Shown here: piece after piece, positions 1,573 to 34,730 of the stretch
Numbering within the stretch: the stretch's first letter is position 1
Layout of the letters: every line of letters starts with the position of its first letter
Origin: an uncultured Alphaproteobacteria bacterium
Lineage (GTDB): Bacteria; Pseudomonadota; Alphaproteobacteria; CAAHEQ01; UBA3637
NCBI GenBank assembly: GCA_944393195.1
Contig: CALXZG010000003.1
Coordinates: 1-35,222 of the forward strand
Reading direction: 5' to 3'
DNA: 35,222 nucleotides
Notes under the pieces: generated by a model
The model's database searches: none
The model's input: the letters and a program-made list of their open reading frames with translations, nothing else
What the model was told of the DNA's origin: nothing
Program-made: the position numbers and the translations under genes

Positions 1573-1938
1573 ATGGCTAAAATTTTAATCGTAGAAGACA
1601 ATGAATTCAATATGCGGCTTTTTTCCGACCTGTTGCAATCGCAGGGGCATCAGGTGATTGAATGTCCGGAGGGAACGGAAGCTTTGGCTTTGGTTCAGAA
1701 GAAACGGCCGGATTTGGTTTTAATGGATATTCAAATGCCGGAAATATCCGGTTTGGCGGTGACGAAGCTTATCCGAGAAACGCCCGAAATTGCCGCGACT
1801 AAAATTGTGGCGGTATCGGCTTTTGCCATGCCGGGGGATGAGGAAAAGATTTTGGCGGCCGGGTGTGATGCCTATATCGCCAAGCCGATTTCCGTTCCGT
1901 TATTTTTTCAGACCGTAGCGGATAACTTGCCAAAATAA
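1573..1938 (+). CDS. divK: DivK-type single-domain response regulator
   Basis: This is a stand-alone receiver domain (121 residues) with no output domain. The acidic pair E8-D9, phospho-acceptor D52 (in VLMDIQMP), S82 (VAVSAF) and K104 (AKPIS) are all in place, so it should be phosphorylatable. The N-terminal ILIVEDNEFNMRLFSDLL and the SAFAMPGDEEKI segment match the DivK family, which controls asymmetric division through the kinases DivJ/PleC and the CckA-CtrA relay in Alphaproteobacteria. The start at ATG 1573 has GAGGTGG just upstream. The usual neighbour pleD is absent; instead an SCS-like gene follows 19 bases later, probably in one transcript. Confidence 0.88.
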   Translation: MAKILIVEDNEFNMRLFSDLLQSQGHQVIECPEGTEALALVQKKRPDLVLMDIQMPEISGLAVTKLIRETPEIAATKIVAVSAFAMPGDEEKILAAGCDAYIAKPISVPLFFQTVADNLPK

Positions 1939-1957
1939 AGGAGCCGGAGCGGGCGCA

Positions 1958-3115
1958 ATGCTGATTAAAGAATATCAGGTTAAGAAGATTTTTAAAAAGC
2001 ATGGTGTTCCCTTATTGCGGGGCGGGGTGGCCTATACCCCCGAAGAAGCGCGTCGGGTGGCCGAAGAAATCGGCGGAAAAGCGTGGGTGGTGAAGGCTCA
2101 GATATTGGCGGGCAGTCGATCGGCCGGTCGATTTTTGGACGGCGCGGAAGAGGAGTTGAGCGGGATTGCTTGGGCAAACGCCCCGATGATGGCGGCGGCT
2201 TTGGCAGAACAGATGTTGGGGCGGTATTTACAAACGCCGGAGACGGGCGGTATTTATCATGAAGTACAGCGAGTGTATGTGGAAGAAGCTTGCCTGGGGC
2301 AGGGTGAATATCAGATGTCTTTGCGCATTGACTTTTTGACCCAAAAGCTTATTTTAACGATTGTATCGGCGGGGAATATGCTTCACCGATATGAGTTGCC
2401 GGGGTATCGGTTGGATGTGCGAACAGAGCGGCGTGTCTTGCGTGAGTTGCGCTTAAAGGACGGAAAGGCCGATCAGATGGCGGATTTGCTACGCCGGCAG
2501 GTGGCTTTGTTTGAGGCGTACGGGGCTATCGCGGTTGAGTTTGATCCGGTTATTGAGACGGCGGGAGGCTTCGTCGTTTTGGACGGGCGGATTGTGTTTG
2601 ATTCGGATTCTTTATTTCGGTATCCGGAGGTCGCGGGGATGATTGAAATTGAGGCGGGGCGTGAGCGGGAAGCGGCCGCGCGGCAACATCAATTTCGCTA
2701 CATTCATTTAGAGGGAAATATTGCCTGTTTGGTGAACGGTATCGGTTTAGGGCAGGCGACGATTGATTCCATTCACCGGAACGGGGGACAGGTGGCTTGT
2801 TTACTGGATATCGGGACGGAACCGTCCCGGGATGCGGTGGCGCGGGCTTTGAAGATGGCTTTATCGGATCCGGATATTGACGGGGTTTTAGTGAATATTT
2901 TCGGCGGCATTACGCGGTGTGATGAAATTGCGGAAGGCTTAATCGCGGCGTCGGGAGAGATTTTGGCGGGGTTGCCGGTTGTGGTGCGGATGGATGGGAC
3001 GAACGCGCATATCGGGCGGCGGTTATTGTTTGAGTCGCGGTTGTCTTTTACGGTGGTGCAAAAAATGGACGAGGCGGTTCGGACGATTATTCAACAGGTT
3101 CGGGAGGTGTCGTAA
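1958..3115 (+). CDS. Succinyl-CoA synthetase beta-like ATP-grasp protein, divergent
   Basis: The 385 residues follow the whole SucC fold: an N-terminal ATP-grasp domain opening EYQVKKIFKKHGVP, then the C-terminal ligase domain with VNIFGGITRCD (312-322) and VVVRMDGTNA. Normal length is about 390. Important positions differ from true SucC. The nucleotide-loop motif GGRGKAGG is GSRSAGRF (52-59), the metal-binding EINPL is EFDPV (194-198), and the LDVGGGAT loop near the CoA-ligase site is LDIGTEPS (283-290). K46 and D215 remain. It overlaps the alpha-like gene by one base (TAATG), so the two are surely co-translated. The TCA-cycle assignment is doubtful given the companion subunit. It is more likely a pseudoenzyme, or an enzyme with another substrate. 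Confidence 0.8.
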   Translation: MLIKEYQVKKIFKKHGVPLLRGGVAYTPEEARRVAEEIGGKAWVVKAQILAGSRSAGRFLDGAEEELSGIAWANAPMMAAALAEQMLGRYLQTPETGGIYHEVQRVYVEEACLGQGEYQMSLRIDFLTQKLILTIVSAGNMLHRYELPGYRLDVRTERRVLRELRLKDGKADQMADLLRRQVALFEAYGAIAVEFDPVIETAGGFVVLDGRIVFDSDSLFRYPEVAGMIEIEAGREREAAARQHQFRYIHLEGNIACLVNGIGLGQATIDSIHRNGGQVACLLDIGTEPSRDAVARALKMALSDPDIDGVLVNIFGGITRCDEIAEGLIAASGEILAGLPVVVRMDGTNAHIGRRLLFESRLSFTVVQKMDEAVRTIIQQVREVS

Positions 3116-4005
3116 TGTTGGTATTGCCGAATCAAAAAACGCCTATTTTAATTCAGGGTATTACGAGTGAGCTCGGGACGGTTCATACAGAATTAGCAAT
3201 AGCCTATGGGACGCATATCGTGGCGGGGACGAGTCGAGATAAAAACGTTGATTCGTTTCAGAATATTCCCGTGTTTCGGACGGTTAAGGAAGCCGTGCGG
3301 AAGACAAAGCCTTTGGTCAGTGTTATTTTTTCATCACCGGCGCGGGCTTTGGGAGATGTTGAGGAAGCGGCGCGGGCAAAGATTCCTTTGATTATTTGTA
3401 CGACGGAGCGAGTGCCTTTGCATGATGCTTTAAAAATGGCGGCTGCGGCGGAAAAATACCATGTAACATTGATCGGGCCGTCGTCACCGGGAATTGTGCG
3501 GGCAGGGGCGTGCATTGCGGGAACGATTCCGGCGCATTTATTTCCGAAGGGTAGCGTCGGTATTATGGGGCGGTCCAGTTCGTTGATTTATGAAGCCGTA
3601 CAGCAATTGGCGGAAGAAGGATTGGGTGTATCGACGTGTGTGGCTTTGGGTGCCGCGCCGATTGTGGGAACATCTTTTGAGCCTATTTTTGATGCGCTAT
3701 CGGTAGATCCGGCGACCAAAGTTATTTTGGTTATCGGGCAGTTATCGGGGCAGTTGGAAAATGATTTGGCGGCGGCCTATCATATGCGGCGGCGGAAAAA
3801 GCCGTTGGTGGTTTATATTCCGGGCGGAACAATGCGGCGGACGGTGAGGACGCCTTTAATCGGGACACCGGCATTTTCTCCGGCCGGGATTGTGGCAGAA
3901 AAGCGGGCTGTTTTAGAAAAGGCCGGTGCGGTATGGGTTGATGATCCGGCCGGGTTAGGGCAGGCGGTGGCTCGATACATTCGAAAAAAGGTGGTGCCGG
4001 CATGA
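3115..4005 (+). CDS. Succinyl-CoA synthetase alpha-like protein lacking the active-site histidine
   Basis: The fold is clearly SucD-like over 296 residues (family about 290): a CoA-binding N-terminus with ILIQGITSELGTVHTELAIAYGTHIVAG, then IGPSSPGIV (120-128), GRSSSLIYEAV and the C-terminal ligase domain. The residue that carries phosphate in true SucD (E. coli His246 in GHAGAI) aligns with L248 in TPLIGTP, and no histidine lies in that region. The glutamate that supports it (E. coli E208, IGEIGG) is Q209 in IGQLSG. The NCPG motif is SSPG. By family knowledge the normal phosphoryl-transfer chemistry cannot work. The gene starts inside the beta gene's stop and overlaps the next gene by four bases. 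Confidence 0.8.
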   Translation: MLVLPNQKTPILIQGITSELGTVHTELAIAYGTHIVAGTSRDKNVDSFQNIPVFRTVKEAVRKTKPLVSVIFSSPARALGDVEEAARAKIPLIICTTERVPLHDALKMAAAAEKYHVTLIGPSSPGIVRAGACIAGTIPAHLFPKGSVGIMGRSSSLIYEAVQQLAEEGLGVSTCVALGAAPIVGTSFEPIFDALSVDPATKVILVIGQLSGQLENDLAAAYHMRRRKKPLVVYIPGGTMRRTVRTPLIGTPAFSPAGIVAEKRAVLEKAGAVWVDDPAGLGQAVARYIRKKVVPA

Positions 4006-5378
4006 AAATGATGTGGGTGGCAGCGGTTATCGGGATGTGTATCGGGGGTATCGTATCGGCGGCAATTGCGGCGCCGGCGGGGGATGTTGTTTTACGGTCG
4101 GCAGACGGATGTCAGATGCATTATGTAACGGAGAAAAACACGGTCGGGTGGCGTATCGACGGGCAAACGGGGGTGTGTCTTGACGGATGGATTGACGGGT
4201 ATGCGGAGGTCACGATTTCGGATGCATTTCAAAAACCGGTTGAGCAAGTTTTCGGATATTTTCGGAATGGATTTTGGGTCGGATCGGAGCCGATTTCTTT
4301 TCCGGTAATGGATTTATCAACGCCGGCAGATGGGGTGCGGGCTTTGAGTGTTGCGTTGGGAGAGAGCGAAGTTGACGGAATTCGCTACGTCGGGCAATTA
4401 CGGGCAGAACGGATGGCGGATGGGTCTTTTGGGGCTTTTACGGGATGTCCGACGGCGCGGGTGTTGGCGGTAACGGATCGAACGGATGTGTTTGAGGATG
4501 AAACGGTTCAATCCGTGTTATTAAACGAAGCGATACATCAGGCTCAGGTTATGTGTCCGGCCGTGGACGTGATTCATTTTTACGGAGCGTCGGTGGTTCA
4601 GCCGACGGATGCGGATGTTTTCTTTTTTGCCGAAATTGATTTAGGATTGCGACAGATTCAGGTTCGGCGGCTGCCGTCTTCTGCCGCACGGCGTGCCGAG
4701 GCAGCACGAATGGTGCGGGTTCGGGCGGAACCGTCGGGGGTACCTATTATGCGGGTAACACCGATTCGGCCGAATACAACGTCTGTTGAAGCGGCGCACA
4801 TGTCGGAAGAGACGGATACGGCAGAGACACCGGTAGTTGATACACCGTTTGATTCCGAGGTGGCCGGTGGTGTTGAAACAGATGTGCATGCCTCGTCCGA
4901 CGGTATGGTTTTGGCGGCGGAATCGCGCTTTATCGGTCAGACGGAGAGAATGGCGGAAATCGCAAAAGAGGAAGCGGCGTCGGGTGCGGAGCCGTCGGAT
5001 ACGGTCGGTGAGGTGGTTAATAATCAGGCTGTGGCGACAGAGGATGTTGCCGTACCGGAAGTGGTTTATGATGCCGTGCCACATTTATTGACGGCGAGTC
5101 GGTTATTGGGCAAGCCGGTATCGGGGCAGGCGGCGGTTCATGTCTTTCGGGTAGATTTATCGGGGCAGGCGTGGATTGATTTACCGGTGCCGATGAAGGC
5201 TAACGGTCGGTTGGTTCAGACAGGATGGAATATGGTATCCGGATTATTTTCGGCCGAGCGTCCGACGGGAACGAAGCCGGGGGCTGTGGCACCGATGGGA
5301 ACGATAGTCATGACGGATGCGGTGGCTTGCGCCGCCGATGGATGTTTTGCGGATCCGGTGAAAGGAGAGGTTCCCTAA
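4002..5378 (+). CDS. Exported protein of unknown function with MORN-like segment
   Basis: I do not recognise a family for this 458-residue protein. An N-terminal signal sequence (a hydrophobic stretch to about residue 23, ending SAAIAAP) indicates export. Residues ~30-95 contain an aromatic/glycine pattern (GCQ, W.IDG, CLDGWIDG, GYFRNGFWVG) that recalls MORN-type repeats. The middle, about residues 225-345, is low-complexity, acidic and threonine/alanine-rich, and looks like a disordered linker. A last folded part follows. The ATG overlaps the SucD-like stop (ATGA), which implies translational coupling. The next gene starts on its stop codon. Coupling to the SCS-like pair and to a membrane protein suggests one shared, unknown process. 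Confidence 0.65.
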   Translation: MKMMWVAAVIGMCIGGIVSAAIAAPAGDVVLRSADGCQMHYVTEKNTVGWRIDGQTGVCLDGWIDGYAEVTISDAFQKPVEQVFGYFRNGFWVGSEPISFPVMDLSTPADGVRALSVALGESEVDGIRYVGQLRAERMADGSFGAFTGCPTARVLAVTDRTDVFEDETVQSVLLNEAIHQAQVMCPAVDVIHFYGASVVQPTDADVFFFAEIDLGLRQIQVRRLPSSAARRAEAARMVRVRAEPSGVPIMRVTPIRPNTTSVEAAHMSEETDTAETPVVDTPFDSEVAGGVETDVHASSDGMVLAAESRFIGQTERMAEIAKEEAASGAEPSDTVGEVVNNQAVATEDVAVPEVVYDAVPHLLTASRLLGKPVSGQAAVHVFRVDLSGQAWIDLPVPMKANGRLVQTGWNMVSGLFSAERPTGTKPGAVAPMGTIVMTDAVACAADGCFADPVKGEVP

Positions 5379-7222: not shown

Positions 7223-9340
7223 CTATCGGATAAAAATAACCTGTTGCGTGGGTGTCGGTTTTGTTTGGTGCGCCACCCGTTTGGCTTGTGTCGTTTGGCG
7301 TTTTAATTGTTGGGCTAATTTTTTAATATAGTCTGCCTGAGTGTCATCGTAAGCGTGGTCCCGTTCCCGGCTGGGGAAAACATAGAATGTGGTTCCGTTA
7401 GTAATATAGGGGACGCGCCAGGCTTTGCCGGAATAAGTGATTTTAAAAGCCGCGACGTTATAGGTTTGCGGTTTCATTTCCCGGTTTTGGCGTTCACGCA
7501 AAGCAGAACTGTACGGTTCCGGAAAATCGGCAATTTCCGTTTCAACCAAGCGGATAAAGTCGGCGTTTTTCCGTTCGTTATCATGACCGATATATATTAT
7601 GTTCCACGGTGTTTTTTGTGTTGCGGGCGGTGTCGGTATCGGTTCCGGCACGAGTGTGACCGGTGCCACCTTTTCGGTTAATTTTACCGTATCGATGCGA
7701 TAACCGGCATCGATGAAAGCTTGTTTCAAATCCGGTATCAGTTGAATAGTCAGCTTCATTATTTTGGTGTTGGCGTAAATCAAATCGATCAATGTTTTAC
7801 CGGAATTGTCCGGTGTATGCAGCAATTCAATGAATGTGCGGCGCATGGAGGGGGTCATCTTCTTAAAAAATTCTTTATGATGACAGGCGCAAATAACATG
7901 CCATGGTGTTCGGCCGGCGCTGTCTTTTTGACGCCAGAAAAACTCCCGTGTTTTGGCAGGCAGGTTATATTCGCAGAAAAAGTTTTGAATCTTAGTATAT
8001 TCGCCCAGCTTGGCCCAGTGGTGCATGATGTGATAATGGGAGAACAATTTCAGTCGGGCGGCCGGTACCTGAACAAATTGGCTCATATCGTTCCAGTAGG
8101 CTGCCGGATTTTGGCGTACATCCGAGAACGTATCCAGAAAGCGCAGCGCTTGTGTGGGGCGGCCTTGAAAATAATCACGGAAAGCGATAAAAACCGGAGA
8201 ATCGGCCGGTGGCAGTTTTTTCTTGGCCCCGAAGATAATATCTTCGTTTGATTGGTTTAGAGCACGTTCCGTTAATTGACGGGCATGTTGATCCGTATAT
8301 GGGAGGGTGCCTTCATCCAACGTATGCCACAGCAGGGATTTGTCGGGGGTTTCTTTTGTTGTCAGAGTGGCTTTGAGGGCGGTATCGTATCCGTCACTTG
8401 TTGCACAAAGGGTATGAAGCAGAGTAGCCGATTGAGCCGGTGTGAGTTTGGATGCCAGTAAGGTATCCAGAATCGGTTGGTGTTGCGCATTGAGGCGAGT
8501 ATAGCGGTTCGGCAACAACAGATCCGCAAACAGAGCTTGGTAAGCGGTATGGGGAGAGTGGTAGGCATGTTCCAAAAGCGGCAGAATATCGATTATTTTA
8601 TGGGGTGGAATCGGATCGTTCAGCAGGCTGAAGCTTAGGCACCGGAAGAACGAGCGTTCTGTTTCGGGAGATAATTGGTCAAAGTACGCTTTTTGTTTTG
8701 CCAGGAGGCCTGTTCGAGTGGGGTTATGGATTTGGGCATTAACGGACAGGGCCAAGGGAATACCGTTCCCGAGAAAAAAGGAAGCAGGGAGGAGTTGCAG
8801 GGCGATGTCGTTAAAAACCGGGGACAGGAAGAAAAAGCGAAAGCGCATAGCATCTTCGTTTTTATCCGTATGACCGAAACGGTCGCTGAGCAAATAGGGG
8901 CCGAGGTATTTGGGGTTGGCCTGATATTGTTCGAGGGCGTAGCGGATTAAGCGAGAGTTATTTTTTTCAATGATTTTATCCAGAAAGGAGGTATGATGAA
9001 ATAAAGCAAACAGGTTTTCGGAAGTTTCTTTTGATACGGCCGGCAGGTAGGACAGCAGTGTTTTTTCCGTTTTGGATGAAAGAGGTGTATCGGGGGCAAA
9101 CAGTTGTCGTAAAGCCTGATTGATTTTTTGGGCTTTATCCATAGCCTTGGAAAAGGTTGTCGGATGTTGGGCCAGTTCGTCGATAAAAAAGTGATAAAAG
9201 GCATTCGCCGCCGTTTGTTCAACATGAGGCAGCGATTGATTTAACAGGGCGCACAGGTCTTTCCGTTGGCGACTTTCCGTTGACGTGTGCATGATATCAC
9301 GCCATAAAGAGGGATAGTCAAACGGGTCGTTGTGTGGCAT
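7223..9340 (-). CDS. Large helical protein of unknown function, possible RelE/HigB-like C-terminus
   Basis: I do not recognise the family. The 705-residue protein has no signal peptide or membrane segment. Residues 1-560 look almost all helical, with repeated leucine/alanine-rich helices and an ankyrin-like patch (AGRTPWHVICACHHKEFF). A proline-rich linker follows, then a separate domain at 576-680: a helix with DFIRLVETEIADFP, a strand pair with FKITYSGKAWRVPYI, a strand TTFYVFPS and a final lysine-rich helix. This order recalls the small RelE/Gp49 (HigB) toxin fold, but the similarity is weak. The start at 9340 is chosen because AAGGAAC precedes it and because an in-frame extension to 9403 would cover the promoter boxes. 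It is monocistronic. Threonine, proline and histidine are high, consistent with its lagging orientation. Confidence 0.75.
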   Translation of the reverse strand: MPHNDPFDYPSLWRDIMHTSTESRQRKDLCALLNQSLPHVEQTAANAFYHFFIDELAQHPTTFSKAMDKAQKINQALRQLFAPDTPLSSKTEKTLLSYLPAVSKETSENLFALFHHTSFLDKIIEKNNSRLIRYALEQYQANPKYLGPYLLSDRFGHTDKNEDAMRFRFFFLSPVFNDIALQLLPASFFLGNGIPLALSVNAQIHNPTRTGLLAKQKAYFDQLSPETERSFFRCLSFSLLNDPIPPHKIIDILPLLEHAYHSPHTAYQALFADLLLPNRYTRLNAQHQPILDTLLASKLTPAQSATLLHTLCATSDGYDTALKATLTTKETPDKSLLWHTLDEGTLPYTDQHARQLTERALNQSNEDIIFGAKKKLPPADSPVFIAFRDYFQGRPTQALRFLDTFSDVRQNPAAYWNDMSQFVQVPAARLKLFSHYHIMHHWAKLGEYTKIQNFFCEYNLPAKTREFFWRQKDSAGRTPWHVICACHHKEFFKKMTPSMRRTFIELLHTPDNSGKTLIDLIYANTKIMKLTIQLIPDLKQAFIDAGYRIDTVKLTEKVAPVTLVPEPIPTPPATQKTPWNIIYIGHDNERKNADFIRLVETEIADFPEPYSSALRERQNREMKPQTYNVAAFKITYSGKAWRVPYITNGTTFYVFPSRERDHAYDDTQADYIKKLAQQLKRQTTQAKRVAHQTKPTPTQQVIFIR

Positions 9341-9374
9341 TTTTTTTGTTCCTTTGTTAGTCCGATAAAAGAAC

Positions 9375-9403
9375 AGTATAGGAAATAAAAGACTTTTTGT
9401 CAA
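9375..9403 (-). promoter_or_regulatory. Near-consensus sigma-70 promoter of the 705-residue gene
   Basis: On the - strand TTGACA (9398-9403) and TATACT (9375-9380) are separated by exactly 17 bases. This is the strongest promoter match in the window. The transcript should start near 9368, about 28 bases before the ATG at 9340. Confidence 0.78.
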
Positions 9404-13338: not shown

Positions 13339-15045
13339 TTATGGTGTAAAAGAGCTGTCAAGAAAGCGTTGCAGGCGACGGAGGGTCAGGCTTTGCGGCC
13401 AGATGAAGCGTCGGCCGTCGGGGAGTAGCAGGACATAAGCGGGGGCGGTTCCCGCAGGTAAATCGTGTGTTAATGTTTGGGCGGCAGATGAGTTAATGTC
13501 GGCTGTTGCTATTTGGATGTTATGTTGTTTCAGCAGGCGTTGGGCGGTTGGTGTGTTCAGGGTGACAGCCTGATCCCAAGCGCAGGACCAGCAATGGGAT
13601 TGGGTGATGGTGACCAATGTGGGGTGTGTGACGGGTGTGTCGGTTGAAAAAAGCGTCGGTTTATTAATCGTTCCGAGGAGAAGGGTGGTAATCAGCCAAA
13701 GGGTTAATGCGATATACGGTACGCGTAATAAGATGGCGTATGTCGTTGGTGTCGCGGTTGTCATGGCATGAAACCGAGACAGTGCTTTATGTGAGGCACG
13801 GCTTTTCAACCAGAAGGGTAACATGGCACCGCATAACCAGAAGAACCAAATCAAGAGAACGGTTGGATGCGTATAATCGGCAGCCCCTTGCCAAAAGGGT
13901 TTCGGCAGAATCAACAGGCCGGCGGCCGTGATGAAGATTGACGGTCGCGGTCGGAATAGAAAGAAAGCCAGAAGCAGCAAGATAGCGATATTCGCACCGG
14001 GTAGAGCGCAGAAGATTTGCATGGTACCGGACGTGGTGGCGGCGGCCGCTATCAGAACCCAAGGTGTCAGGTGGCGGATAGAAGCAGATATGTTTTGTCG
14101 GACGGTGGCGGTTGTTCGACCGATATTGGTCAGCCAGACGGGCCAAAGCGGGCTGAACAAAAACAGGCATAATCCGCCAAAGAGTGCTGTAAACCAAGGG
14201 AAAGGCTTGGTCGGTCGGGGGAGCGGTTGATCCGTGACGGGCAGGTTAATTTGGTAAAAGAGGTCAGGTGTTTTCAAGTAGAGAGGAATGGTATCGCCGG
14301 GGGTGACGGGTAAATCCGAGACAGGAAACGTCAGACGGGCTTCACGACCGGTGACGGTGGCAGCCGATTCCGGAGTTCCGTCCATGGTTTGGGCGTGGAT
14401 GGACCGGACGGTATCGGGGAAAGAAATGACAGCCTGCCATTGTGTGTCGTTCAGGCGGGCGGCTTGCCCGATGACGTTTTGAGTATCTGCGGGAACGGCC
14501 GATGTGCTTAACGCATTTTGGATAAAGCCGCACCAAGGGGTTGGGCGGTTATGAACGGCGGGTAAAGTCAATGTTTGAAGAATGGTTTCTTTTTGGCAGA
14601 CACCGATTCGGGAACAGGCCGTGACGGTGGCGATGACAGCGAGGGGCGTGTCGTGTGTCGGGGGTGTCGGGAAGGTAAAAAGAATCGGGAAAAAGGCAGT
14701 GTCACGATAATTGTTGCCCCACGGTTCGCCGGGGGTGTGGCGGAGGGGTGTCAGGCGCGTAACATGTGCGGTGTCGGCGAAAGCTTGAATAACGGGATGT
14801 TGAAGTGTCCAGCCGTTTGTGAGGGTAAAAAGGAGGCCCGTGGCGACGGTTCGGGTATCGCGCAGGCCGCCGGGGCAGGCCAGCAAGCGGACGCGACCGA
14901 AACCGAATGTTTGTTCGGTTGAAGCGCCGGCATCGGTGTCGGTCAATGTCGCTTTGAAATCATCGGCGATTTGTGCGAGGGATATGGCACCGGCCGGTTG
15001 CGCGGTGATTAAAAAGAAAAAAAGGACGGTTAAAAATGCTTTCAT
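13339..15045 (-). CDS. DsbD/ScsB-like membrane thiol-disulfide protein, degenerate core
   Basis: The architecture is that of DsbD, which carries electrons across the inner membrane to periplasmic disulfide proteins. A signal peptide (1-20) leads into a periplasmic alpha domain with C144 and C150 spaced as in nDsbD (C-x5-C). A membrane core spans about 284-465, and a C-terminal thioredoxin-like domain has CWSC (485-488) and a cis-proline near P535. The total is 568 residues. The core is odd: where DsbD family members have a PCVLP-type motif with the essential cysteine, this protein reads SPLWP (298-302). Fewer helices are recognisable than expected. Electron transfer by the standard route looks impaired. 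No good ribosome site is seen. The gene diverges from infC. Confidence 0.7.
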   Translation of the reverse strand: MKAFLTVLFFFLITAQPAGAISLAQIADDFKATLTDTDAGASTEQTFGFGRVRLLACPGGLRDTRTVATGLLFTLTNGWTLQHPVIQAFADTAHVTRLTPLRHTPGEPWGNNYRDTAFFPILFTFPTPPTHDTPLAVIATVTACSRIGVCQKETILQTLTLPAVHNRPTPWCGFIQNALSTSAVPADTQNVIGQAARLNDTQWQAVISFPDTVRSIHAQTMDGTPESAATVTGREARLTFPVSDLPVTPGDTIPLYLKTPDLFYQINLPVTDQPLPRPTKPFPWFTALFGGLCLFLFSPLWPVWLTNIGRTTATVRQNISASIRHLTPWVLIAAAATTSGTMQIFCALPGANIAILLLLAFFLFRPRPSIFITAAGLLILPKPFWQGAADYTHPTVLLIWFFWLCGAMLPFWLKSRASHKALSRFHAMTTATPTTYAILLRVPYIALTLWLITTLLLGTINKPTLFSTDTPVTHPTLVTITQSHCWSCAWDQAVTLNTPTAQRLLKQHNIQIATADINSSAAQTLTHDLPAGTAPAYVLLLPDGRRFIWPQSLTLRRLQRFLDSSFTP

Positions 15046-31323: not shown

Positions 31324-32898
31324 ATGATAAAACATATTGTATCATTTGTCATAGGTATCATGTTATTGGGTATGTGTATTCCCGTTCGGGCCGATGGATG
31401 GGCGAAAATTGACAAGGAGTATGCCCGATCGGTTTATACGCCGTCGGCACCTTATGTAAAAGTGAATCCCTTTGGAACGTCGCCGTTATCGGCCATTTTA
31501 AAATTTTCCCTACCACAGCCCGCGAAGGTGTCTATTCGGATTAAAGGTAAAGAGGGGGCCCCGGATTTGGCAACGAATTTTTCGGCGTTTCAAACGGAGT
31601 GGGAGATTCCCGTCTACGGTCTTTATCCCGGTACGGAAAACCGGGTTGAGATTGTCGTGACGGATAACAAGGTATCAAAGACGTACCCGATCGTTGTGAA
31701 AACACCGTTACTATCGGGGGAGATGCCTTGGGTTGTCCCGTTTCAACATCAACAGGGGCAGAATGGTTTTTATGGGGCGAGCGGTGGGCGGAACGGCGGT
31801 TCTTTTTTTGTATTTGACGAGTACGGCTATATTCGCTTTGTCTTTTTAAATCCTCAAGATGCCGTATATCAGCAGGCTTCCTTGATTCATCATCGGTTGG
31901 TTGTTGATAAAGGAGATGGGAAAATAGCGGTTTATTCTTTGTTGGGGGAGAAAATACATGAGTGGCAGGTGCCGGATGATTTCAATAGTTTTCAGCATGG
32001 TATTTACGCCGGTCCCGGAAAGATAATTTTTTTAATCGGCACGTTTCCCGATACGTCCGTTATGATCAAGGGGCATTGGCAAAAGACAGCCAATGATTGG
32101 ATTGTGGCATTTGATTTAGAAACGGGACGAATTGTCAAAAAATGGCATATGGCATCAATTTTAAATCCGGAGCGTTCTGTTTATTTTCAGAGCCCGTCCC
32201 AAGGATGGGGGGCCGATTGGGCACATGTGAATTCAGTTCAATACATACCGCGGGAAGAGGCTTTGCTTGTTTCCGCCAAGCATGTCGGATTCTTTTTAAT
32301 GGGGTATACGGACGGGGATTTAAAATGGTTGGTATCGCCGCATTTGTCTTGGGAAAAATCGGGGGTGGATGGAAAAGGACCGGCTTTGTGGTCCCAACTT
32401 TTAACAGCCGTTGATGACAGATTGTTTCCTTTTGAACGGGAGGTGCAGCAGGGGCGGAAGATTGTTGATTCTTTTCATTGGCCGATGATGAATCATGATG
32501 TCAAAGAAGTAGGACCCGGGGTTATCAGTGTTTTCAGCAATAATGGGCCGTTGGCAGACAAAAGTTTGGTGTCTTTGGATAAAAGCGATGTGTTGTTATT
32601 CGAAATTGATGCGGGAAAGAAAACCGTTCGCTTAAAAAAGAGAATACCATTGCCGTATTATGCCGATATCGCTTCCGGTGTGACATATTTACCCAGGCAG
32701 GATGATTTTTTTGTCTTTCTGTCAAATTTACCCGATCAAAACACGCATGATGTTTTTCACAAAATATATCGCTATGACGGGCGGATGCGTGAGGTTCTTT
32801 TTGAAGCATCTGTATTTTATCAGTCTTATTTTTATCGGATTGAGCCGATATCGTTTTATCGGGCAAAACAGATGGTACCGGATACACGCATCAATTAA
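31324..32898 (+). CDS. Arylsulfotransferase (ASST) family protein A, periplasmic
   Basis: ASST enzymes move sulfate between phenolic compounds in the periplasm through a sulfo-histidine intermediate on a six-bladed propeller. The protein has 524 residues, a signal peptide (about 1-23, VRA-D) and an N-terminal beta-sandwich (about 40-128). The propeller carries family motifs around FQHGI (H225), DWAHVNS (H301) and MNHDVK (H391, the acceptor position). In E. coli AssT the corresponding residues are H252, H356 and H436, with R374 eighteen residues after H356. Here that position is K319 (SAKH) rather than arginine. The mature chain has no cysteine. It converges on paralogue B. The family is firm; activity is uncertain. 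Confidence 0.85.
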   Translation: MIKHIVSFVIGIMLLGMCIPVRADGWAKIDKEYARSVYTPSAPYVKVNPFGTSPLSAILKFSLPQPAKVSIRIKGKEGAPDLATNFSAFQTEWEIPVYGLYPGTENRVEIVVTDNKVSKTYPIVVKTPLLSGEMPWVVPFQHQQGQNGFYGASGGRNGGSFFVFDEYGYIRFVFLNPQDAVYQQASLIHHRLVVDKGDGKIAVYSLLGEKIHEWQVPDDFNSFQHGIYAGPGKIIFLIGTFPDTSVMIKGHWQKTANDWIVAFDLETGRIVKKWHMASILNPERSVYFQSPSQGWGADWAHVNSVQYIPREEALLVSAKHVGFFLMGYTDGDLKWLVSPHLSWEKSGVDGKGPALWSQLLTAVDDRLFPFEREVQQGRKIVDSFHWPMMNHDVKEVGPGVISVFSNNGPLADKSLVSLDKSDVLLFEIDAGKKTVRLKKRIPLPYYADIASGVTYLPRQDDFFVFLSNLPDQNTHDVFHKIYRYDGRMREVLFEASVFYQSYFYRIEPISFYRAKQMVPDTRIN

Positions 32899-32951
32899 AG
32901 CGGAAGAGCATATCGGTAGCAGGGTTGTTATGATGACAGGTTCGTCGGAGA

Positions 32952-34730
32952 TTATCGGACAAGGGTTGTGATGTCAATCGGTTCCATACGGTAATTCCAA
33001 CCGGCACCATGAATGACGGCTTCGAACAGAACCTGATCGGTTATGCGGTTAACGCGGAACAGACGACCGTATTGCAGGTTGGAATTTTTATCCTGTATTT
33101 CGAATACATAGATGACTGCAATCTTATTATCCGGAAGAAAAGAGATATTGGAGCCGGGACCGGAGTAGAAATGTGTCGGGAAAGACCAGACCTGTTCAAT
33201 TGTTTTTTTCTGTTCGTCAATTTTAAACAGCATACCGGTACTGTTTTGGTGGGCAATGATGCGTTTGTTATAGGCGAAGTTATCGTTATTAAAAATACTG
33301 AAATACCCGTTACCGAGGACTTTGGCGTCGTGGGTCGTTGTCGGCCATTGGAAGTGTGGAGATTCCGTCAACCCTTGTTGAACGGCGGTCGGCAGTGGTG
33401 TTCCCGATGAATCGACGGCCGTCAGAACTTTATCCCAGAGTGCCGGGCCGGTTCCGTCCCGACCGGATTTATCGTAGCCAAGTGCGGGACCGAACACCCA
33501 TTTGAGGCGGCCGCTTTGGTAATCAAATTTGACCATCCCGACATGGCGACCGGATAGGACGATACTGTTATCGGAGGTATCGAATTGAACGGAGTTGGTA
33601 TGAATCCAATCAATGGCGCCATAATCTTTTTGAGATGAGCGGACAATAACACTTCTGTCCGGATTGAGAATTTGAGCAATATCCCAGCGGCGGACTTCGT
33701 TCCCCGTTCGATAATCCATTTCCAAAATAATATCGCGGTGTGTCGGTTGTTCGGTTCCTTCGATGTTAGCTGTGGTTCCGGTTTGTGTGCCGATGACGAG
33801 AAAGTTGCCGTTGGGCATACGACCGATCCCGTGGGTAAAGGAGGTAAAGTCTTTCGGATAGGGATAGGATTGTTCTTTCCGACCGAGCAGGGAATATCGG
33901 GTTAGTCCTTTGGAGCGGTGTTCGGTAATGACTTCGCCAGGATACAGATAAGCCATATCGCCGGTATCTATGTTATAGCGAATAAAACCGTATTCATCAT
34001 AGATCAGGCCGTCAAAGGTATAGTAAAAAAGATCTTGGGTATCTTGTTTGATGAGTGGTTGATAGACAATGCGGCGATTGCTGGCCTCCCGAGTTGAAAT
34101 GGTCAACGGGTAGTCGTGTGTTGTGTGATCGGTGATGATGGTCAGAATGATTTGGTTTTTGTGTTTGGGGTATAATCCGATAACGGGCAGGGCGTGTTCC
34201 GTTGTGTTTTCGGGATAATCGAATGTCAGGTCGGCGGCCGGCGGGATACCTTTGACGGTGATACGGGCGCGGGTGGGAGCCGGTGTCGTAAATCGGATTA
34301 AAGCGGAAAGAGGTGTTTTGGCATACGGGTTAAGGACGATATAGGGGGATTCCGGTGTATAATCGGCCAGTTGGTATTCGGTGTCCATACGTTCGTCCGG
34401 TGTCATGAACTCGGAGGTAAGCCATTTATCCTGTTTACGGACTTTTATCGGGTGGCCGTCCGGATGAATCAGCATGAAGTGCGTCGATGTTTCGTTTAAA
34501 ATGTCCCAGACATGATGATCTGTATCGGTTAACAGGCCATTCTTATTTTGTGTCAGGCAGATATTTTTTTGACGTAGGGGCAGGATGTAGGTACACGTGT
34601 TCAGGGCATCGTTTTGAACGGGATGCGGGATTAAGCGATCCTGACGATAAATATTAGCCAAACGTAACAGTAGGAGGCTTTCCAACAAAATCAGAAAAAC
34701 AATACCGACAAAAGTCAACCGTTTTTTCAT
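32952..34730 (-). CDS. Arylsulfotransferase (ASST) family protein B, membrane-anchored
   Basis: This is a paralogue of gene A, with 592 residues. One N-terminal hydrophobic helix (about 5-25) has no clear cleavage site, so the protein probably stays anchored facing the periplasm. An extra ~100-residue segment (about 30-125, two cysteines C46 and C58) precedes the beta-sandwich. The propeller then shows all expected residues: H300 (FTHGIG), H377 (DWIHTNS), R395 (LSGRH, 18 residues later) and H467 (TTTHDAK). It should be the active member of the pair. The ATG lies six bases past the porin-like stop and has no ribosome site of its own, so it depends on coupled translation. No terminator is seen in the 53 bases before gene A's end. 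Confidence 0.87.
   Translation of the reverse strand: MKKRLTFVGIVFLILLESLLLLRLANIYRQDRLIPHPVQNDALNTCTYILPLRQKNICLTQNKNGLLTDTDHHVWDILNETSTHFMLIHPDGHPIKVRKQDKWLTSEFMTPDERMDTEYQLADYTPESPYIVLNPYAKTPLSALIRFTTPAPTRARITVKGIPPAADLTFDYPENTTEHALPVIGLYPKHKNQIILTIITDHTTHDYPLTISTREASNRRIVYQPLIKQDTQDLFYYTFDGLIYDEYGFIRYNIDTGDMAYLYPGEVITEHRSKGLTRYSLLGRKEQSYPYPKDFTSFTHGIGRMPNGNFLVIGTQTGTTANIEGTEQPTHRDIILEMDYRTGNEVRRWDIAQILNPDRSVIVRSSQKDYGAIDWIHTNSVQFDTSDNSIVLSGRHVGMVKFDYQSGRLKWVFGPALGYDKSGRDGTGPALWDKVLTAVDSSGTPLPTAVQQGLTESPHFQWPTTTHDAKVLGNGYFSIFNNDNFAYNKRIIAHQNSTGMLFKIDEQKKTIEQVWSFPTHFYSGPGSNISFLPDNKIAVIYVFEIQDKNSNLQYGRLFRVNRITDQVLFEAVIHGAGWNYRMEPIDITTLVR

Follow-up and report, generated by a model that had tools for sequence, protein, structure and literature searches.

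A succinyl-CoA synthetase-like gene pair without the phosphohistidine, found beside cell-cycle relay genes in a family of Alphaproteobacteria

Introduction

The two-subunit succinyl-CoA synthetase (SCS) SucCD, represented by the E. coli enzyme (PDB 1jkj) and by the human and pig GTP-specific SCS, is the closest described relative of the gene pair reported here. The pair resembles SucCD in its gene order (sucC-sucD), in both folds, in the presence of all domains and in vertical descent. It differs from SucCD in lacking the phosphohistidine, Glu208 and the NCPG motif, in its altered nucleotide loop and metal-binding Asn, and in scoring below the NCBIfam equivalog cut-offs; it also has no Krebs-cycle neighbors and is adjoined by chpT or divK instead. 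ChpT is the phosphotransferase of the CckA-ChpT-CtrA cell-cycle relay. A second SCS-like protein, FdrA, is tied to oxamate carbamoyltransferase and shares with the pair an SCS-like fold used outside of the Krebs cycle. FdrA, unlike the pair, is a one-chain protein of another architecture, and the alpha subunit described below scores 32.9 bits against the NCBIfam FdrA cut-off of 433. The roles of His246α, Glu208α and Glu197β in SCS have been described (PMC10342173).

Metabolic enzymes have been recruited to cell-cycle control in Caulobacter crescentus, where the citrate synthase CitA controls CtrA without a need for catalysis, and where KidO and GdhZ, which have metabolic-enzyme folds and bind NAD(H), act on cell-cycle proteins (PMC7083601). 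These roles came from screens, and the primary structure of the proteins does not reveal them (PMC7083601). CitA is similar to the pair in that a Krebs-cycle enzyme lineage regulates the CtrA pathway in an alphaproteobacterium (PMC7083601), a link that for the pair is suggested here by gene order. CitA is an active enzyme with paralogues, whereas the pair is a sole copy that has lost catalytic residues. KidO and GdhZ are NAD(H)-based proteins with unrelated folds and are not SCS homologues. In the papers searched, we found neither an SCS-derived regulator linked to ChpT nor an SCS described as a pseudoenzyme.

Results

The window analyzed here is the whole 35,222-nucleotide stretch of contig CALXZG010000003.1 from an uncultured alphaproteobacterium (GCA_944393195.1). 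It encodes a SucC-like beta subunit of 385 aa (1958..3115, + strand) with ATP-grasp_2 and Ligase_CoA domains, followed by a SucD-like alpha subunit of 296 aa (3115..4005, + strand) with CoA_binding and Succ_CoA_lig domains. The original prediction described an intact, coupled pair with no frameshift, and this was borne out: both reading frames are whole, and the beta stop overlaps the alpha start in TAATG at 3113-3117. Both proteins retain the full SCS domain set, and Pfam and predicted structures place them in the SCS architecture with the beta and alpha folds, respectively. AlphaFold models of the pair have mean pLDDT values of 85 and 87, and their top PDB matches are SCS chains, including a Foldseek E of 3e-30 between the alpha model and E. 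coli SCS (1jkj). The beta model reached an overall TM of only ~0.65, probably because the relative placement of its domains is uncertain (pTM 0.61), and the weakest internal block of the alpha model, residues 241-250 (pLDDT 51), is the old histidine loop. The two subunits presumably form a heterodimer. Scores fell short of the NCBIfam equivalogs for both proteins, with 300.5 bits for beta against the SucC cut-off of 370 and 239.1 bits for alpha against the SucD cut-offs of 353.2 and 336.

Upstream, a 19-base gap with an AGGAG-like ribosome site (1939..1957, +) separates the beta gene from a divK-type gene. Downstream, the alpha stop has a 4-base overlap with a gene for a predicted secreted protein of unassigned family (4002..5378, +), which possibly shares a transcript with the pair; its adjacency to the pair is not conserved among relatives. 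Elsewhere in the window are two large proteins of 726 and 568 aa (7223-9403 and 13339-15045, both on the − strand) with no Pfam or PHROG match, and two arylsulfotransferase (ASST) genes on opposite strands (31324-34730), which are unexpected for a 1.15 Mb genome.

Residue columns were assigned by alignment with 16 canonical alphaproteobacterial SucCD pairs. In the alpha subunit, L248 (3856..3858, +) replaces the phosphohistidine (E. coli H246), Q209 (3739..3741, +) replaces the supporting Glu (E. coli E208), and SSPG (3481..3492, +) replaces NCPG, with S123-S124 at the N-C columns; each of these columns is canonical in 16/16 SucD sequences, which confirms the substitutions first read from the DNA. 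A displaced histidine was considered and ruled out, as no His occupies a conserved position in the loop among family members. In the beta subunit, for which we take the metal and nucleotide roles of residues from general knowledge of SCS structures, the altered nucleotide loop was likewise confirmed, with GSRSAGRF (2111..2134, +) in place of GGRGK (GSRSAGR aligned with AGGRGK). Where beta faces the histidine site, its loop reads GTEP (2813..2824, +) instead of the canonical GGGA, and the Pro of GTEP is fixed in 39/40 family members. The metal motif, EFDPV (2537..2551, +), had also been predicted to be altered, and this holds in part: the metal-binding Asn (16/16 in canonical sequences) is now D196, but the beta Glu (E. 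coli E197) is unchanged as E194. The second metal ligand, D209, is also retained. The proposal that all chemistry had been removed was thus overstated, since E194 persists in 31/31 and D209 in 26/31 beta subunits of the main clade of the family, and these residues leave room for some chemistry. From the alignments, we conclude that loss of SCS phosphoryl-transfer catalysis in the pair is well supported and that, judged in the same way, the nucleotide site is more damaged than the CoA site.

The loss extends throughout the bacterial family of the window. Among 43 genomes searched, the alpha subunit is present in 41, the other two being only 63% and 68% complete; alignment and tree show the phosphohistidine in 0/41. 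In the histidine column, the 31 genomes of the main clade show Leu, Phe, Ile, Val, Met or Thr, with one gap, and Asn occupies it in 9/9 genomes of a second clade. Glu208 is gone from 30/31 main-clade alpha subunits and retained in 9/9 of the Asn clade, and NCPG is missing from 40/40 full-length family alpha subunits. The beta Glu197 equivalent is found in 31/31 main-clade and 4/9 Asn-clade members. The beta subunits of the main clade have all (31/31) lost a GGM..EEV stretch that canonical SucC conserves. The CoA-domain residues Q14, G15, T17, G21, E26 and G38 are kept in the main clade, T17 being replaced in the Asn clade. Across the family alignment, the alpha/beta core is better preserved than the nucleotide and histidine pockets.

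The tree indicates vertical descent of the pair from SucCD, and no canonical sucCD was found elsewhere in the window's genome or in the 43 family genomes, where the pair is the sole SucCD match per genome if a one-chain ADP-forming synthetase that also matches SucD is set aside. The only other SCS-superfamily protein found in the window's genome is a one-chain ADP-forming acyl-CoA synthetase (L002 241-2388), in which the SHTGS histidine motif is intact. Citrate synthase (PF00285) and 2-oxoglutarate dehydrogenase E1 (TIGR00239) were absent from 40/40 family genomes, 27 of which are over 90% complete, in searches that detected the positive controls. Because both enzymes are missing, the pair can have no Krebs-cycle duty left. 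Rs-D84, a similar reduced gut lineage, has also been reported to lack the Krebs cycle (PMC12306168), which we note as a likeness only. The original prediction took the absence of a canonical sucCD elsewhere in the genome as grounds for refuting a new role. That absence was found, but it does not refute the idea, because without a Krebs cycle the pair is not needed to act there.

The dN/dS comparison suggested with the original prediction gave omega values of 0.01-0.17 for both genes between closely related members; several dS values were saturated, and the firm set, with dS under about 1.5, spans 0.02-0.17. Nearly all of 40 genomes carry the pair at full length with unbroken frames. Within the family, ten positions have become fixed for residues that differ from canonical SCS, among them alpha S156 (40/40), alpha Y234 (40/40) and beta P289 (39/40); S156 and P289, placed from canonical motifs, lie in loops facing the old phosphohistidine. 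Strong purifying selection on the pair is well supported, and the newly fixed residues fit an altered function and not decay. With omega well under 0.2 and these residues in hand, we reject decay; the predicted loss of function without decay is upheld by family-wide residue loss, purifying selection and an intact fold.

ChpT lies directly 3′ of the pair in 25 genomes from 11 genera, usually with a 4-base overlap, while the remaining neighbors vary between genera. The identity of this ChpT is strongly supported by profile matches to solved ChpT structures (4qpj, E 7.5e-15; 4fmt, E 1.6e-6) and by an H13-D14-L15 (HDL) motif invariant in 19 sequences. Profile search also placed chpT directly after the pair in genome G012, and CtrA adjoins in two genera, after chpT in G013 and beside chpT in G009. 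In the Asn clade (g5, g8, g9; L083-L086, L106), the genes after the pair-chpT block were named by eye as those of a short receiver-like protein and of a methyltransferase resembling CheR, as if in a small signaling operon.

In the window's genome, ChpT was not found with Pfam or the family profile. Directly upstream of the pair is instead a DivK-type single-domain response regulator (1573..1938, +; Response_reg E 2e-26), whose closest solved match is Caulobacter DivK (1m5t, E 3.8e-40; next best 1.9e-19). DivK occupies this place in 3/3 intact loci of the genus, including G001 and G003. With the family profile, no ChpT was detectable in the window's genus (g1) or in G006 (g4), and the pair is still present in both; in G006 a close DivK was likewise not found, and none of the genes flanking the pair was recognized as belonging to the relay. 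It seems unlikely that two genes of one pathway would neighbor the pair in different branches by chance, and this gene order suggests a link between the pair and the relay.

CtrA is encoded in the window's genome at C2:103057-103722. Next to it on contig C2 lies a Cys-rich protein with a prepilin-like N-terminus (L187 486-1739), which belongs to one family with the Cys-rich protein at 3-1010 of the window, the two having long near-identical stretches. No CckA could be assigned in the window's genome, where a 661-aa candidate at C4:42281 was rejected as a receiver/SpoIIE phosphatase. This protein type (L186 1445-3430, 661 aa, a receiver and SpoIIE-type phosphatase with a HATPase domain) resembles frames of about 650-700 aa in most family genomes searched.

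Phosphohistidine loss was also found in other families. In f48 (G089 and G097-G111), Tyr fills the histidine column in 16/16 alpha subunits and nearly all have Gln for Glu208, in pairs otherwise well kept; the beta subunits retain Glu, Asn and Asp and a conserved NVKGGVDKD loop. G112, of family f55, also has Tyr, and the NVKGGVDKD loop is common to it and all 16 f48 genomes. In f39, G113 has Asn in the column, and G080 still has His although its beta site is eroded. Because the Tyr-type G089 sequence branches with canonical SucD in the tree and not with the window's family, the phosphohistidine was lost at least twice; the placement of L068 in the same tree is unsure owing to its long branch. 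The f48 and f55 pairs resemble the window's pair as sole SucCD copies without a phosphohistidine in alphaproteobacterial genomes of 1.4-1.7 Mb. They differ in their independent loss, in the beta Glu, Asn, Asp and NVKGGVDKD loop that they keep, and in the position of chpT, which in G089, the one f48 genome examined, lies elsewhere than beside the pair. By eye, the G089 pair (L100 6520-9765) sits between SufE-like and ComF-like genes. Since chpT lies away from the pair in G089, a relay link is not the general fate of a dead SCS.

Discussion

We propose that the pair is an SCS that has given up phosphoryl-transfer chemistry and survives as a heteromeric regulator with a tie to the CtrA relay, in a family without a Krebs cycle; we hold this proposal to be evenly balanced against everything else. 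The more specific proposal, that across the family the dead heteromer acts within the ChpT/DivK-CtrA relay as a metabolite-gated component, a Krebs-cycle enzyme that has outlived its cycle as a signaling protein, is tentative and somewhat short of even. In the mechanism that we propose for the regulator, the ligand of the alpha Rossmann domain and the conserved alpha/beta ligase core would be a CoA species (an acyl-CoA or a dicarboxylate being possible), and the complex would dock on ChpT either with this ligand or free of it. In the window's genus, with no detectable ChpT, docking could be on DivK or on partners of DivK. Docking would then shift phosphate flow to CtrA, in either direction. 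ChpT cannot be the only partner of the pair, because genera without it (g1 and g4) keep the pair. The original prediction of a new role, such as that of a sensor, is plausible, on gene order with ChpT, DivK and CtrA that could not be seen from the window, and as a whole it is partly supported. Against the relay proposal, conserved gene order can reflect co-expression only.

The main rival shares that last point. It holds that the pair is still an enzyme and carries out some other reaction without a phosphohistidine, such as direct acyl-phosphate or carbamoyl chemistry or CoA-ester hydrolysis or transfer, and that the chpT link is co-expression only. Strong selection, a beta E194 invariant in the main clade and the frequent D209 all agree with this, as does FdrA, which shows the SCS-like fold in other enzymes and is matched weakly by alpha. 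However, the nucleotide loop, metal Asn, Glu208 and NCPG have changed differently between members, unlike a conserved new active site, and the GGM..EEV stretch is gone from the whole main clade; we give a new reaction a low probability, though one to be taken seriously. It is also rather improbable that the pair senses no metabolite and serves ChpT, or some other protein, only as a passive structural partner or scaffold. The better kept alpha/beta core and the conserved chpT adjacency would be expected of such a protein, but a pure scaffold has no need of the six CoA-domain residues that the main clade keeps (T17 being replaced in the Asn clade).

Two further explanations have very little in their favor. 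Reduced genomes that have lost the cycle might be expected to carry a decaying relic, yet the full-length, in-frame genes, the low omega and the newly fixed residues strongly disfavor this, and we consider it highly improbable. Equally hard to credit is that the pair works as a succinyl-CoA synthetase with a relocated histidine, or with one provided in trans by a protein such as ChpT. That the neighboring ChpT is itself a histidine phosphotransfer protein is purely suggestive, whereas no conserved His lies in or near the loop, the nucleotide site is eroded, no 2-oxoglutarate dehydrogenase is present to supply substrate, and genera without ChpT retain the pair.

For the proposed regulator, catalytic loss and gene order together would betray a link by which central metabolism signals to the bacterial cell cycle. 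Annotation of sucCD by similarity credits such reduced genomes with a reaction that is probably impossible there. The pair may instead serve as a clean pseudoenzyme for asking what the fold of a Krebs-cycle enzyme gives to signaling.
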